This document shows, one piece after another, positions 3,130-27,446 of a DNA stretch of 46,075 nt. Under the pieces are notes generated by a model. That model saw only the letters and a program-made list of their open reading frames with translations, ran no database searches and was not told the DNA's origin. Position numbers and translations under genes: made by a program. The DNA lies in IMG/VR virus record IMGVR_UViG_3300018026_000018, positions 1 through 46,075 of that record; one strand, 5' to 3'. Every line of letters begins with the position of its first letter. Position 1 is the first letter of the stretch. The stretch is from a virus.

Positions 3130-3440
3130 TGATAATAGATAAAAAAACAATAATTATACTTATACTTAGTTTAGTAATAGTAATATTATCTTATATTAGT
3201 ATGTCTAAACATATACAAGTTAAATATAATTCTAAATTAATTGATAGTTTAAATTCAGTAATTAAAACACAACATAAAATAGATACTACATTTATACATG
3301 ATACAATATATTATGATAAAGTTGAAACAGTAATAAATACGGAATATGAAACAATATATAAAGAATTTTCTAATCGTAATATTATTTCAGATGATAGTAT
3401 TATGCACTTCATCTCAAACAAGATACATAATAAAAAATGA
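3129..3440 (+). CDS. Inner-membrane spanin-like (Rz-type) protein, 103 aa
   Basis: An N-terminal transmembrane helix (about residues 8-25: TIIILILSLVIVILSYIS) is preceded by basic residues and followed by a periplasmic, coiled-coil-prone segment (IDSLNSVIKTQHKID). The end of the protein (SDDSIMHFISNKI) resembles the conserved 'xDSxxxFFSxxF' tail of spanin-like proteins of Bacteroidota phages. The next gene starts inside this one (95-nt overlap, different frame) and encodes an exported protein, the classic nested layout of Rz/Rz1-type pairs. The role would be fusion of inner and outer membranes in the last step of lysis. Membrane topology is read directly; function is inferred from architecture. 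It starts at the TAATG overlap with the broken upstream gene. Confidence 0.6.
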   Translation: MIIDKKTIIILILSLVIVILSYISMSKHIQVKYNSKLIDSLNSVIKTQHKIDTTFIHDTIYYDKVETVINTEYETIYKEFSNRNIISDDSIMHFISNKIHNKK

Positions 3441-3738
3441 TAGTCTTGTTTGTTATTCATATCAAGAAAATAGAGATATTGCATTATTATTAATTAAAGG
3501 TGAAAAAGATTCTTGTTTATTAAATAATTGCAATGTTTTTACTGATAAATTAAAAAACGATTTTGTTAAATTAAATAAAGATTTAACTAGATGTGATAGT
3601 ATAACAAGTTCATGTATTGAAGATAATAGAAAATTATTTAATGCTAATCAAAAATACAAAAGTAAATTTAAAACATATACTATAATAGGATTAGCAAGTA
3701 TTGGATTAAATATTATATTATTAATAAGTTTATTATGA
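3346..3738 (+). CDS. Exported spanin-partner-like protein, 130 aa
   Basis: The N-terminus is a signal-like hydrophobic segment (residues 5-23, NFLIVILFQMIVLCTSSQ). It contains Cys20 in an imperfect lipobox (V-L-C, with Leu rather than Gly/Ala/Ser at -1). A Cys- and Lys-rich helical middle (about 55-105) follows, then a C-terminal transmembrane helix (TIIGLASIGLNIILLISLL). A lipidated or exported N-terminus with a C-terminal TM helix is the u-spanin plan, while its nesting within the upstream i-spanin-like gene is the Rz/Rz1 plan. Either way, it probably acts in envelope disruption. It overlaps the next gene by 4 nt (ATGA). The outer-membrane anchor is uncertain because the lipobox is poor. 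Confidence 0.55.
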   Translation: MKQYIKNFLIVILFQMIVLCTSSQTRYIIKNDSLVCYSYQENRDIALLLIKGEKDSCLLNNCNVFTDKLKNDFVKLNKDLTRCDSITSSCIEDNRKLFNANQKYKSKFKTYTIIGLASIGLNIILLISLL

Positions 3739-4340
3739 TTAGTATTACACCATTTAGATTTGAAAAAAATAATATAATAATAGAACCAGAACTATTAGTA
3801 TATAGTGATTTTAAAGCAGTATATGATTTAGATAAAAATACTAATAAAGAACTTGCATTAAAATATTTTATTTATATATATCATAGTGCAGATCAAAAAG
3901 CTGTTCCGGTTATAAAAGGATATTCAATAAAAGAACTTCATAACTATGCTTGTAGAGAAGCAGGACTTCCAATTACATTCAAACCTGATTCAACTATATC
4001 AAGAGCAATAATATTTTATAAAGAAAATTTTATATCACCAGTTAAAGAACTTCAACTCAATCTTCTTAATACTCTACAAAAGAATATTAAAATACTTTCT
4101 AAAGTAGATGATATGGTTGATAAGAAACTTAATATAGATGAACTTACACCAGAACAATTAACAATGTTAATGGAAGTTCAAAGTAAAGTTTCTAAAATGG
4201 CTAAAGAACTTACAGGTGATATTAAAACAATGAAAGATTTAGATATATTAATTAATAATTCTAAAGATACTGTTCAACACCGTAGAGGTGGAGATGAAAT
4301 AGAAAATTCTATGATAAGAAATGATGATATTGAAAATTAA
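3735..4340 (+). CDS. Hypothetical protein, 201 aa; possible small terminase (TerS) candidate
   Basis: The ATG overlaps the upstream stop (ATGA). The protein has an N-terminal domain (about 1-100) with a run of aromatic residues (ALKYFIYIYHSADQ), typical of a conserved protein found just upstream of terminase in Bacteroidota phages. A long helical, coiled-coil-prone region (about 100-165) and a charged, disordered tail follow. Small terminases are oligomeric helical proteins of this size encoded just before TerL, and no other gene here fits better, but I see no clear helix-turn-helix. The TerS assignment therefore rests on position and helical content only. Confidence 0.55.
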   Translation: MISITPFRFEKNNIIIEPELLVYSDFKAVYDLDKNTNKELALKYFIYIYHSADQKAVPVIKGYSIKELHNYACREAGLPITFKPDSTISRAIIFYKENFISPVKELQLNLLNTLQKNIKILSKVDDMVDKKLNIDELTPEQLTMLMEVQSKVSKMAKELTGDIKTMKDLDILINNSKDTVQHRRGGDEIENSMIRNDDIEN

Positions 4341-4635: not shown

Positions 4636-4641
4636 TAATAT

Positions 4642-4664
4642 AAGGTCTAGTAATACTAGACCTT
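4642..4664 (+). terminator. Terminator hairpin after the microprotein
   Basis: AAGGTCTAG (4642-4650) pairs with CTAGACCTT (4656-4664) around a TAATA loop; the stem can extend to 11 bp by closing TA/TA. ATTAATTT follows. It is the same TAGTA/TACTA core family as the hairpins at 52, 15662 and 24182. Confidence 0.7.
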
Positions 4665-4684
4665 ATTAATTTAAATTAAATATT

Positions 4685-23765: not shown

Positions 23766-24176
23766 ATGGCAAAATTTAATTTCAATGATCTTCTTATAGG
23801 TTTTGATGGTAAACCTTTATCTAATGGTGTAGATGGTAATCTTACATTTAAAAATGTATGTCAAGCTACACTATGGAATACATCTGATAGAACTGGTGAA
23901 GAAAAATATAAATCATATAAATTATCACGTTTAATTGATTCAGATAAAGAAGTTGAACTTACAGTTGAACAAGTATCTGAAATTAAAAAACAAGTAGGTA
24001 GTATGAAATATAGTGCTTTGGTTATAGGATTAGTATTTGATAAATTAGAAGGAATAGATAATACAAAACAAACATTAGATAATACTGTACTAGACCCAAT
24101 ACAAACATCAGACCCAATACAAGCATCCCCAATACAAACATCAGACCCAATACAAACATCAGAACAAGCAAATTAA
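23766..24176 (+). CDS. Conserved small phage protein with Pro-rich repeat tail, 136 aa
   Basis: I start at ATG 23766 (MAKFNFND), preceded by an A-rich leader, not the upstream ATG 23742. Residues 1-100 resemble a widely distributed small phage protein (FNFNDLLIGFDGKPL, a KLSRLIDSDKEVELTVEQVSEIKKQV middle and a final helix), possibly a tail-assembly chaperone-type protein; its role is not established. The C-terminal ~30 residues are a six-residue repeat (DPIQTS / DPIQAS / PIQTS / DPIQTS). A strong terminator follows the stop. Confidence 0.7.
   Translation: MAKFNFNDLLIGFDGKPLSNGVDGNLTFKNVCQATLWNTSDRTGEEKYKSYKLSRLIDSDKEVELTVEQVSEIKKQVGSMKYSALVIGLVFDKLEGIDNTKQTLDNTVLDPIQTSDPIQASPIQTSDPIQTSEQAN
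24093..24161 (+). repeat. 18-bp tandem repeat in the tail of the 23766 gene
   Basis: Units of 18 bp (GACCCAATACAAACATCA and variants) occur at 24093-24110, 24111-24128, 24129-24143 (3 bp shorter) and 24144-24161. All changes keep the reading frame. The unit is unusually rich in C for this genome. Confidence 0.85.
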
Positions 24177-24181
24177 CAAAT

Positions 24182-24207
24182 AAGTGCTAGTAGAAATACT
24201 AGCACTT
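24182..24207 (+). terminator. Terminator hairpin with GAAA tetraloop
   Basis: AAGTGCTAGTA (24182-24192) pairs perfectly with TACTAGCACTT (24197-24207) around GAAA and is followed by CTTAT. It has the same core and loop as the 15662 hairpin and separates the 23766 gene from the glycosyltransferase fusion. Confidence 0.8.
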
Positions 24208-24221
24208 CTTATATCATAAAT

Positions 24222-26177
24222 ATGATAATAATAACTTCAATATCTCCTACTCATAAAAATTTTAAAATTCAGCAGGATGCAGTTGATAGTTATATTAAAT
24301 TAGGTTTAAAAGTATATTCATTTAATACAAAAGATGAATTAAAATTATTAAAATCTAAATTTCTAAACGTAATATTTAAAGAAGTAGATAATATTAATAC
24401 AGGGTTAGAATTATTTAATAAACCTTATATTAATATTAATTATTTAATAGAAAAAGGTTTTGAATTAGACGATAATATATTTATTTTAAATTCTGATATT
24501 ATACTTGATTATAATATTAAAATATTAAATAAAATAAAAGAATATACTAATAACGGATTAGTTATAGGAATTAGATATAATATTGGAGAAAATATAGAAT
24601 TAGAAAAATATGGTATAGATGGATTTGCATTAAATATAAAATTTAAAGATATATTTAAAGATTCAATATATTGTATGGGTCAATCTTGGTGGGATTATGA
24701 TTTACCTTATACATTTATAGATAATAATATAATAGTTTATAGAATTGATTCTTATTTCTTAATACATAATGAACATAAACAACAATGGAAAACTAAAGAT
24801 TGGATTACATTAAGTAATTATTTTAAACTAACACATAATATATTAACTAAAGATCCTGCTATAATAGCAATGGATATTAGAAATGAGATAAACAATAAAT
24901 CTATAAAATTTGATTATAATATGAATATATATGAAAGATTAAATATTTTAATAGGTAATAATAAAAATAATACTATTATTGAAATAGGAGCTAATATAGG
25001 TCAAGATACAAAACAACTATTAAAATATCGTTCTATTGTTCATGCTTTTGAACCTGATCCAAGAAATGAAATAAATATTCAATCTAATAATTTAATTGTA
25101 AATAAACTTGCAATATCAAATAAAATTGGTCAAGAACAATTTTATTTATCTAATAGAAAACAATCACGATGGACAGAAAGTTCATCTATTAAAACACCAA
25201 TAAATCATTTAATTAAATATCCTTATATAGATTTTGACAAAGTTATTGAAGTAGATTCTATAACACTAGATAAATATACAAATCAAAAAGATATTAAACA
25301 TATTGATTTTATATGGTGTGATATTCAAGGTGCAGAAAAAGAAATGATATTAGGTGCAAAAACTTCTTTATCATTTACCAAATATTTATATATAGAATAT
25401 TCTAATGAAGAACTTTATGAAGATCAACCTAACTTAACTACATTAATATCTTTACTTCCTGGTAAATGGAATATTATAGAAGATTATGGTACAGATATAT
25501 TATTAGAAAATATAACATATAATCCTATAATATCTAAAATAATAAAACAACCAAAAACACTTAATAATCTTATAACAATATTAACAGTTTGTTCAAGACC
25601 TGAAAATTTAGATAATATATATAATTCTATAATATCTCAAAACTATGATAATTTTAAATGGATTGTATCATTTGACAGTGATGAAATTCCTAACTGCCCC
25701 AAAGAAGATAAAAGGATATTATATGTAAAATATAAGAATGGTTCTAGTGATGTTACTAACTATGCTGCATTAAATAATATATTTGATAATTATATAGATG
25801 AAGAAATATATTTTCATATAATTGATGATGATAATATATTATTTCCAAATTATTTTAATTCAATTAATAATATTATTAATTCACGAGATAATATTAAATT
25901 TATAGTATATAATCAAGAATTTAAAGATAATAAATTACGTTTTATAGCTAAAACTAATAATATAAGACAAGGTTTTATTGATATTGCACAAGTTTGTTTT
26001 CATTCAGATTTAATAGAAAATACTAGATTTATTCAAAATTATACTGCCGATGGTATATTTTATCAACAATTATTTAATAAAATTAAATCAGAAAAAAGTA
26101 AGTGGGAATGGGTTAATAAAACATTTTGTTATTATAATTATTTAAATAATTCTGAAAATAAAATTAAAACTATATAA
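24222..26177 (+). CDS. Glycosyltransferase - FkbM methyltransferase - GT-A glycosyltransferase fusion, 651 aa
   Basis: Three modules are readable. Residues 1-~205 form a GT-A-like domain (start MIIITSISPTHKNF; IFILNSDIILDYN with D-x-D-like acidic residues; FLIHNEHKQQW). Residues ~235-440 form an FkbM-family SAM-dependent methyltransferase: E254-IGANIGQ-261 is the SAM motif I, FEPDPRNE the motif II acidic site, and KHIDFIWCDIQGAEKEMILGA the family's conserved DxxG.E block. Residues ~448-651 form a GT2-type domain (LITILTVCSRPENL, FKWIVSFDSD, HIIDDDN with the DxD metal site at 535-537). It should transfer and O-methylate sugars. Target candidates are virion fibre proteins or host surface glycans. 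It lies inside the tail module, downstream of a terminator. This reading of domains is firm; the substrate is unknown. Confidence 0.8.
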   Translation: MIIITSISPTHKNFKIQQDAVDSYIKLGLKVYSFNTKDELKLLKSKFLNVIFKEVDNINTGLELFNKPYININYLIEKGFELDDNIFILNSDIILDYNIKILNKIKEYTNNGLVIGIRYNIGENIELEKYGIDGFALNIKFKDIFKDSIYCMGQSWWDYDLPYTFIDNNIIVYRIDSYFLIHNEHKQQWKTKDWITLSNYFKLTHNILTKDPAIIAMDIRNEINNKSIKFDYNMNIYERLNILIGNNKNNTIIEIGANIGQDTKQLLKYRSIVHAFEPDPRNEINIQSNNLIVNKLAISNKIGQEQFYLSNRKQSRWTESSSIKTPINHLIKYPYIDFDKVIEVDSITLDKYTNQKDIKHIDFIWCDIQGAEKEMILGAKTSLSFTKYLYIEYSNEELYEDQPNLTTLISLLPGKWNIIEDYGTDILLENITYNPIISKIIKQPKTLNNLITILTVCSRPENLDNIYNSIISQNYDNFKWIVSFDSDEIPNCPKEDKRILYVKYKNGSSDVTNYAALNNIFDNYIDEEIYFHIIDDDNILFPNYFNSINNIINSRDNIKFIVYNQEFKDNKLRFIAKTNNIRQGFIDIAQVCFHSDLIENTRFIQNYTADGIFYQQLFNKIKSEKSKWEWVNKTFCYYNYLNNSENKIKTI

Positions 26178-26178
26178 T

Positions 26179-26469
26179 ATGACAGATGAAAATGTAGATA
26201 AAAAAAGACTTGATTTTTTACAATATTTAAATACAGTTATATTAACTGCAATAGGTATTGTATTAGTATTTCTTTGTGATGCAGTGATAGAAGTAAAAAA
26301 AGGACAAGAAACAACATCTGTAGAATTAGGTATTATTAAAACCAAACAAGATGCTAATACTGTTAACATTAATACTTTAGATGTTAGAGTAAAATCATTA
26401 GAAGTAATTAATACTTCTGAAATTAAAACATGGGTAGATAATAATTATATTCGTAAACCACAAAAATAA
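26179..26469 (+). CDS. Small membrane protein with TM helix and coiled coil, 96 aa
   Basis: A short cytoplasmic-type basic N-terminus (DKKRLDFLQYLN) is followed by one transmembrane helix (about 18-36, TVILTAIGIVLVFLCDAVI) and a C-terminal segment with heptad-like hydrophobics (VELGIIKTKQDANTVNINTLDVRVKSLEV). This is the build of a lysis accessory protein or of membrane-tethered phage proteins such as i-spanins. It starts 1 nt after the fusion stop and lies 6 nt before a holin-like gene, which supports a lysis-related role. The function is inferred. Confidence 0.6.
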   Translation: MTDENVDKKRLDFLQYLNTVILTAIGIVLVFLCDAVIEVKKGQETTSVELGIIKTKQDANTVNINTLDVRVKSLEVINTSEIKTWVDNNYIRKPQK

Positions 26470-26475
26470 TATATT

Positions 26476-26772
26476 ATGGAAATTAATGTAATAAATTTTT
26501 TAGATTTAAAATATATAATTAGTTTAGTACTTGGTTCATATGGTATACTAAGTTTTGTTATTAAAACTCCAAGTTCCACACAAAAACATATCTTTACTTT
26601 CTCGTGGGGTGTCGCACTTGCAATTGTTTGGTATTATGCTTTACACATAACATTAGATACTTTAATTGTATCTTTTATTATTAGTGTAGTAGGTTATGAT
26701 AAATTACTTGCTCCAATATTAAAACAATTGAATATAAGTTATGACGATCATAATGGTAAAGGAATAATTTAA
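26476..26772 (+). CDS. Holin-like membrane protein, 98 aa
   Basis: Three hydrophobic segments can be read in 98 residues: about 10-30 (LKYIISLVLGSYGILSFVI), 41-58 (FTFSWGVALAIVWYYAL) and 61-78 (TLDTLIVSFIISVVGY). A charged, His-rich tail follows. Small size and three membrane helices are the features of class I-like holins, which form the lesions that release or activate lysins. It lies in a cassette with the single-TM protein and 2.7 kb from the papain-fold hydrolase. Part of its coding sequence (26595-26620) resembles the leader of terminase. The stop overlaps the next ATG (TAATG). Confidence 0.6.
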   Translation: MEINVINFLDLKYIISLVLGSYGILSFVIKTPSSTQKHIFTFSWGVALAIVWYYALHITLDTLIVSFIISVVGYDKLLAPILKQLNISYDDHNGKGII

Positions 26773-27446
26773 TGATTACATATAATCAATTAGGTGCTAA
26801 GGTTGCTTTATTATTAAATCAACCTTTTAATCATGAATTAAGTGAACGTATTAAAGATTCATTTAAATTTATACTTGCTACACGTATTAGACAATCAGTG
26901 CAGCAATATGGAATAGATGAATCTTTAAAACTTACTTATGCTTTACCTTTAATTCAATATAATCCTATTGTTGATATTACAACAAATGTATTATCAATAT
27001 CAATAAATATTAATGATAGAAAATATAGACTTAGAACTATAGATAAAGTATTACGTTCAGTTAGGTTTTTAAATGAAGCTCCATTTACTAAAATATCTAC
27101 AATAGAAGGAAATATAATATCTTATATAAATCAAACAGAAGATTTATATACACCTTCTACTAGATTTTCTATGGCACTTAGATATTATTTAGATAATGGA
27201 TATATAATAGTTTTATCTAATCAACGATTAACAAAATTAAAATTAATTAATATTACAAGTATATTTGAAGATATGGATCAAGTGATTACATATTATAATG
27301 GTATACTTGCAGATGAAGATGCTTTAATACCAATTCCTATGGATATGATAAATTCTATATGTAGTGAGTTATTAAAAACAGAATTTGGTATAATAAAAAA
27401 TGAACCAGTATCTATAGAAATAGCAGATGATATAGCACATAAATAA
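26772..27446 (+). CDS. Neck/ring-type virion protein, crAss-like, 224 aa
   Basis: The pattern matches a conserved crAss-like neck protein: an N-terminal helix pair (YNQLGAKVALLLNQPF, IKDSFKFILATRIRQSVQQYG), a beta body with the DKVLRSVRF and APFTKIST pieces, then YYLDNGYIIVLSNQRLTKLKLINITSIFEDM. In this family the last part typically reads 'Y.NG.I.I....K.I.I.GIFE.P'. An acidic loop and a C-terminal helix (DALIPIPMDMINSICSELLKTE) end it. It would be one of the stacked rings between portal and tail. It overlaps the holin-like stop. Confidence 0.65.
   Translation: MITYNQLGAKVALLLNQPFNHELSERIKDSFKFILATRIRQSVQQYGIDESLKLTYALPLIQYNPIVDITTNVLSISININDRKYRLRTIDKVLRSVRFLNEAPFTKISTIEGNIISYINQTEDLYTPSTRFSMALRYYLDNGYIIVLSNQRLTKLKLINITSIFEDMDQVITYYNGILADEDALIPIPMDMINSICSELLKTEFGIIKNEPVSIEIADDIAHK

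Follow-up and report, generated by a model that had tools for sequence, protein, structure and literature searches.

The window, meaning the whole 46,075-nucleotide stretch that was analysed, encodes a single chain in which an FkbM methyltransferase (MT) domain lies between two glycosyltransferase (GT) domains. We propose that this protein would be a soluble trifunctional enzyme building a short methylated oligosaccharide, with a virion protein of the crAss-like phage that carries it as acceptor, a reading for which and against which we see about equal chances.

Integrity and distribution of the fusion gene

The open reading frame is uninterrupted on the plus strand, starts with ATG and comprises 651 codons, and its product consists of three intact, full-length domains in which the conserved motifs are kept. 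The features of the gene are as follows.

24222-26177, plus strand: GT-FkbM-GT fusion protein, 651 aa; single open reading frame, three domains recovered by leave-one-out profiles
24222-24914, plus strand: N-terminal GT-A glycosyltransferase domain of a rare family, residues 1-231; AF2 model, Foldseek, VIA-align, relatives L314-L318 and L284
24489-24497, plus strand: NSD motif, residues 90-92, DXD-like; family alignments
24687-24698, plus strand: WWDY motif, residues 156-159; family alignments
24765-24776, plus strand: His182 to His185, both His invariant in the family alignment
24981-25457, plus strand: FkbM SAM-dependent methyltransferase domain, residues 254-412; PF05050, TIGR01444, motifs
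25572-26144, plus strand: C-terminal GT2-like GT-A domain, residues 451-641; family, PDB profile matches, PF00535 in relatives
25824-25835, plus strand: DDDN motif, residues 535-538, invariant in the family alignment

Profiles from which the window sequence was excluded recover the fusion protein in each of its parts (N 3.2e-45, FkbM 1.1e-51, C 7.3e-39), and none of 2000 shuffled versions of the protein scored against the three domain profiles. The three parts of the gene have a GC3 of 0.070, 0.039 and 0.060, which is similar to the rest of the phage and hence gives no sign of recent compositional patchwork. The protein has no hydrophobic stretch or membrane segment. The three-domain GT-MT-GT chain of 651 residues that had been read from the letters in a first-pass annotation is borne out by the frame, the FkbM families, a GT-A model of the N domain and the profile of the C family.

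Viral and genome contigs searched for the pattern of the whole fusion protein returned zero relatives, other FkbM-C fusions were absent among 195 FkbM and 121 C-type frames, and, as far as the queries tried go, 50,697 records of named phages contained no match to the N- and C-type relatives. The fusion is carried by no other phage examined. Furthermore, a phage FkbM-GT fusion is unreported in the literature searched, most subscription journals lying outside its coverage. The kinds of domains are already known; the GT-MT-GT order and the phage setting appear to be new within the searchable material.

A single-sequence AlphaFold run of the whole protein reached a pLDDT of 32.5 and was discarded as useless. 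Since MAFFT misplaced GT fragments when fragments of all domains were stacked on the full protein, structure prediction was limited to the N domain.

The FkbM domain belongs to a clade that includes NoeI

The central domain (residues 251-412) is matched by PF05050 over residues 254-412 (E 9.9e-20, 71.8 bits versus a cut-off of 22.7) and by TIGR01444 of NCBIfam (5.2e-18, 65.9 bits versus a cut-off of 37.7). The EIGANIGQ motif, the QGAE block and the DDD site noticed at first pass are all present, namely as the SAM-binding glycine motif EIGANIGQ at 254-261, as DIQGAE at 367-372 and, in the C-terminal domain, as DDDN at 535-538; an acidic FEPDP is found at 276-280.

The nearest named relatives lie on plasmids and are annotated NoeI, with 34.9% identity over 89% (7e-31) in NGR234. 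In rhizobia, noeI is the gene for methylating the fucose of Nod factors (PMC6275314). On a maximum-likelihood tree, the window FkbM domain falls in a 26-row clade (99/91) together with NoeI, with phage rows nearest, and its top identity is 43%, to the FkbM protein of L315, a phage contig. A specific sister grouping with NoeI is absent from this tree, the window domain being closer to the phage rows, and in these terms NoeI is a clade-mate of the window domain rather than a demonstrated ortholog. Among 80 bacterial loci, 12 have the FkbM gene near both GDP-mannose dehydratase-like and GDP-fucose synthase-like genes and 2 further ones near a GDP-fucose synthase-like gene only, these neighbours having been named by eye from locus L189. 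Given the NoeI relatives, the GDP-fucose-type neighbour genes and the placement on the tree, our reasoned guess is that the domain most likely methylates O-2 of a 6-deoxyhexose such as fucose or rhamnose.

The viral contigs L185 (2947-4188) and L155 (2968-4287) also carry FkbM frames, of 413 and 439 aa respectively, and a second FkbM-like stretch is visible by eye further along the L185 chain.

The two glycosyltransferase domains

The N domain gave no convincing match in Pfam, PHROG, PDB or phage sequences. One clear relative was found in a Bacteroidota genome (L284), where it stands at the beginning of a large protein and is followed by a GT2 domain. When used together as query, the window and L284 sequences retrieved relatives in five viral contigs (L314-L318), which are stand-alone full-length genes of 237-242 aa that start at most two residues from the start of the window protein. 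AlphaFold with these five relatives and the window sequence as input yielded a model with a pLDDT of 88.9 and a pTM of 0.88. Foldseek matched this model to WrtF, chondroitin polymerase, SpsA and TarP, and by both Foldseek and VIA-align it falls among GT-A enzymes, including GalNAc-T2 and heparosan synthase, with VIA-align Z scores of 13.7 for WrtF, 13.6 for GalNAc-T2 and 13.1 for chondroitin polymerase. As far as the model goes, the N domain is a GT-A fold, a structure match of this type speaking to the fold and not to specificity; it was on such a fold within the N-terminal 200 residues that the first reading had been made to depend.

Residues N90, D92, D158, Y159, H182 and H185 are invariant in the N family. 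The DXD-type position reads N-S-D, with the Asn first, and the spacing of these residues resembles, we assume, that of the DxH, W..E and His positions of polypeptide GalNAc-transferases. His182 or His185 is a possible metal ligand. The first domain of the fusion may belong to a glycosyltransferase family absent from Pfam. A scan of 827 genomes from three phyla with the N profile, performed without a positive control, gave no match. Apparent matches in L112/L113, L185 and L149 proved to be composition artefacts, and weaker ones in Bacteroidota genomes besides L284 were set aside, the one that was opened (L285) being an unrelated frame.

For the C domain, the direct Pfam match stays below the cut-off (best Glyco_tranf_2_3, E 0.25, 11.8 bits versus 27). 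Five of 10 members of its family match PF00535 (best 3e-7), and the family profile finds TarP (7.8e-6), SpsA (1.3e-3) and a GT43 enzyme in the PDB. The family comprises 121 phage or bacterial members, mostly on viral contigs. The DDDN motif is invariant in all ten aligned sequences, as are Q, R, D, DG and YYN positions, and the domain in the window extends slightly, by a few residues, beyond the C-terminal end (CYYNYL) of the stand-alone relatives. In L366 (3004-4863) and L391 (2920-4923) the C-type GT is joined to a second GT2 domain, and the L391 fusion adjoins a gene of phrog_29329.

The gene lies in a variable block of a crAss-like phage

The window is the whole of its record, a fragment of 46 kb from a crAss phage (Crassvirales) that is Crevaviridae-like. 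Its terminase, portal and major head protein match crAss families and its conserved genes are ordered as in crAss phages. Among named genomes, cr127_1 (Crevaviridae) is the closest, with 45% identity for the terminase, 43% for the head protein and an identical order of conserved genes. The block between the head and ring genes varies among relatives, and the fusion gene sits in that block, of which ring protein 2 is the conserved downstream border. Two features flank the gene.

24182-24207, plus strand: 11-bp perfect hairpin with a GAAA loop, 14 nt 5' of the start codon; fold -15.3 kcal/mol, z -5.84
26772-27446, plus strand: crAss tail ring protein 2; PF25702 2.1e-15, relatives in the same order

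Directly downstream of the fusion gene are two small proteins with hydrophobic segments, the first gene being on the same strand and starting at 26179, and then tail ring protein 2. Upstream, a 171-aa product resembles NlpC/P60 proteins by eye, with no such family match. The locus had been described as lying between tail/hydrolase and neck genes: the hydrolase is that resemblance by eye, and given ring protein 2 downstream, "tail ring" fits better than "neck". The small membrane protein at 26476-26772, 3' of the fusion gene, has relatives in G021 and G019 that occupy a similar position, and is perhaps a holin. An 18-bp tandem repeat (24092-24163, 4.2 copies) encodes DPIQTS-type units at the C-terminus of the 144-aa product preceding the fusion gene.

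The core of the upstream hairpin, CTAGTA/TACTAG, recurs in the window only at 4647. Perfect 11-bp hairpins with at least three G/C per arm number two in the window (4640-4666 and 24182-24207), against 0.05 expected, and both are intergenic, the former shortly 5' of the terminase and the latter directly 5' of the fusion gene. They could be terminators or RNA processing sites. Hairpins with the shared core are absent from the close relatives L002, L006 and L007, and an Rfam search gave no matches.

As for the distribution of the gene within the group, 37 related records contained zero FkbM domains and zero relatives of the fusion protein, an absence that is only partly informative since many of these records are fragments. 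Moreover, 1671 frames from related loci showed no match to any of the three domain profiles, and a query with the ring protein found no relative. The idea that relatives carry the same fusion at the same locus thus found no instance among the related records examined.

The partners occur as separate neighbouring genes in other phages

On L315, which carries a terminase, an FkbM gene (about 3372-3998) runs into the beginning of an N-type gene (3995), a few genes past the terminase. On L317 the order is N-type gene, one more gene, FkbM gene and then portal, and on L314 N-type and FkbM genes share one cluster with a gene that is GDP-fucose synthase-like by eye. On L322 and L343, C-type GT genes come after two FkbM genes, close upstream of the terminase, the one of L343 being assigned by similarity to that of L322. 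Different phages thus repeatedly have an N-type or a C-type gene as neighbour of an FkbM gene, and in the window all three are joined in frame. On the FkbM tree, the genes of L314, L317, L322 and L343 belong to other branches, which suggests that GT and FkbM genes were paired on more than one occasion.

Among the C-type loci (L319-L398) with at least 2.5 kb downstream, a terminase lies about 1.3-2.7 kb away in 41 of 60, a count of sequences and not of independent events. Loci that were read individually contain further GT and methyltransferase genes, and together the C-type loci look like a recurrent glycan cassette beside the terminase; the one query tried for this cassette had no match in named phages. 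In the uncultured phages L316, L317 and L318, tail-like genes are immediately followed by a cassette with GT8-like, N-type, DUF6492-like and methyltransferase genes, which in L317 lies ahead of portal.

Proposed function and alternatives

Chemically, the product that best fits the fusion is a short methylated glycan. The N-terminal GT-A and the C-terminal GT2-like domains would each transfer one sugar and the middle FkbM domain would O-methylate one of the two, so that the product would most likely be a methylated disaccharide. By domain order alone, with the methyltransferase between the GTs, the methyl could be terminal and cap the chain or could be internal. The acceptor would be a capsid or tail fibre protein glycosylated in the cytoplasm before lysis. 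We infer here the activity of all three domains, the order of the steps, the identity of the sugars and the virion acceptor. The lack of membrane segments points to a cytoplasmic acceptor and, with the place of the gene in the virion module, fits an enzyme that works in the cytoplasm ahead of lysis. We favour a virion protein since the gene lies inside the virion module here and its partners lie near terminase or portal in other phages, a proximity that may itself reflect a hotspot for cargo genes. The 1855-aa product, with 25% Ser+Thr the highest among the frames counted, is a candidate target of the glycan. The upstream hairpin may separate transcription of the fusion gene from that of the preceding genes, which would weaken its co-production with virion genes. 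No sugar-nucleotide genes were seen in the 46-kb fragment, so the donors would come from the host or from the missing half of the genome. That a tailed phage methylates its own virion glycan via a single-chain synthase, a phage counterpart of A064R fused from genes that elsewhere are separate neighbours, is a suggestion we make tentatively, the odds being somewhat against it.

The main rival is that the enzyme alters a host surface glycan (capsule or LPS) whose methylated end blocks the receptor for superinfecting phages. It is well known that phage GTs alter host surfaces. TarP, the best PDB match of the C-type profile (7.8e-6), acts on teichoic acid, NoeI-like FkbM enzymes work on an exported oligosaccharide and the hairpin 5' of the gene could provide its own timing. 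However, the protein is without a membrane segment and the scanned frames of the fragment record include no flippase or lipid-linked GT partner of the gtr type. Moreover, the gene is placed among the virion genes, in a phage group described as incapable of lysogeny (PMC8375218), and in other phages the partner genes are likewise beside terminase or portal. We consider this rival improbable on balance, if a serious one.

The fusion could also be cargo from a bacterial surface-glycan locus, with at least one domain inactive and without a defined role in the phage. Its absence from all 37 related records and the position of the N-domain relative within a Bacteroidota multidomain GT would agree with such an origin. 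Against this, the three domains are full-length, their invariant motifs are kept and the AT-rich codon use is that of the phage; intact domains and phage-like codon use suggest long residence under selection, and we judge cargo unlikely. Glycosylation and methylation of the phage DNA, as a hypermodification against restriction, is very improbable: phage GTs can hypermodify DNA, according to work cited in PMC12619734, but the FkbM domain clusters with sugar methyltransferases of the NoeI type and no base-modification gene was noticed in the scanned frames of a fragment that is mainly the structural half.

If the virion-glycan reading is true, some crAss-like phages could coat their virions with a methylated sugar, and receptor binding, stability and immune recognition may change. 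The crAss-like phages are a very common group on Bacteroidota. Furthermore, the separate-gene versions beside terminase or portal in unrelated phages suggest wider, little-described glycan cassettes within virion modules, and the fusion indicates which of the cassette enzymes act together.

Comparison with known systems

NoeI is a stand-alone enzyme, whereas the window FkbM domain sits fused between two GTs. The TarP/SpsA-type GT2 enzymes, matched by the profile of the window C family, are single GTs without an FkbM domain. The WrtF fucosyltransferase, chondroitin polymerase and GalNAc-T2 have the GT-A fold in common with the window N domain, at an identity of about 10-14%. In a viral structure library, proteins of giant viruses (Catovirus, Pithovirus) are named as GT and methyltransferase.

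Glycosylation of phage virions exists in mycobacteriophages (PMC11256854, PMC12619734), where Che8 and Rita encode glycosyltransferases of their own and carry glycans on their major capsid protein (PMC11256854); there, the GT genes are separate and the hosts actinobacterial, in contrast to the single fused chain described here.

By domain layout, the closest known design to the fusion is A064R of the chlorovirus PBCV-1 (PMC9614988). This protein of 638 aa has three domains of ~200 aa, of which two are rhamnosyltransferases and one is a 2-O-methyltransferase, and it makes the terminal part of the capsid glycan and methylates it. The simplest model for the window protein follows A064R, with two sugars added one after the other and one of them methylated. 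Both are one viral chain of ~640 aa with two GTs, the N-terminal one of GT-A type, and one SAM methyltransferase (PMC9614988). The order of the domains differs, GT-GT-MT in A064R versus GT-MT-GT in the window protein, and A064R, with its known target and known sugars, belongs to a giant eukaryotic algal virus, the window protein to a phage.
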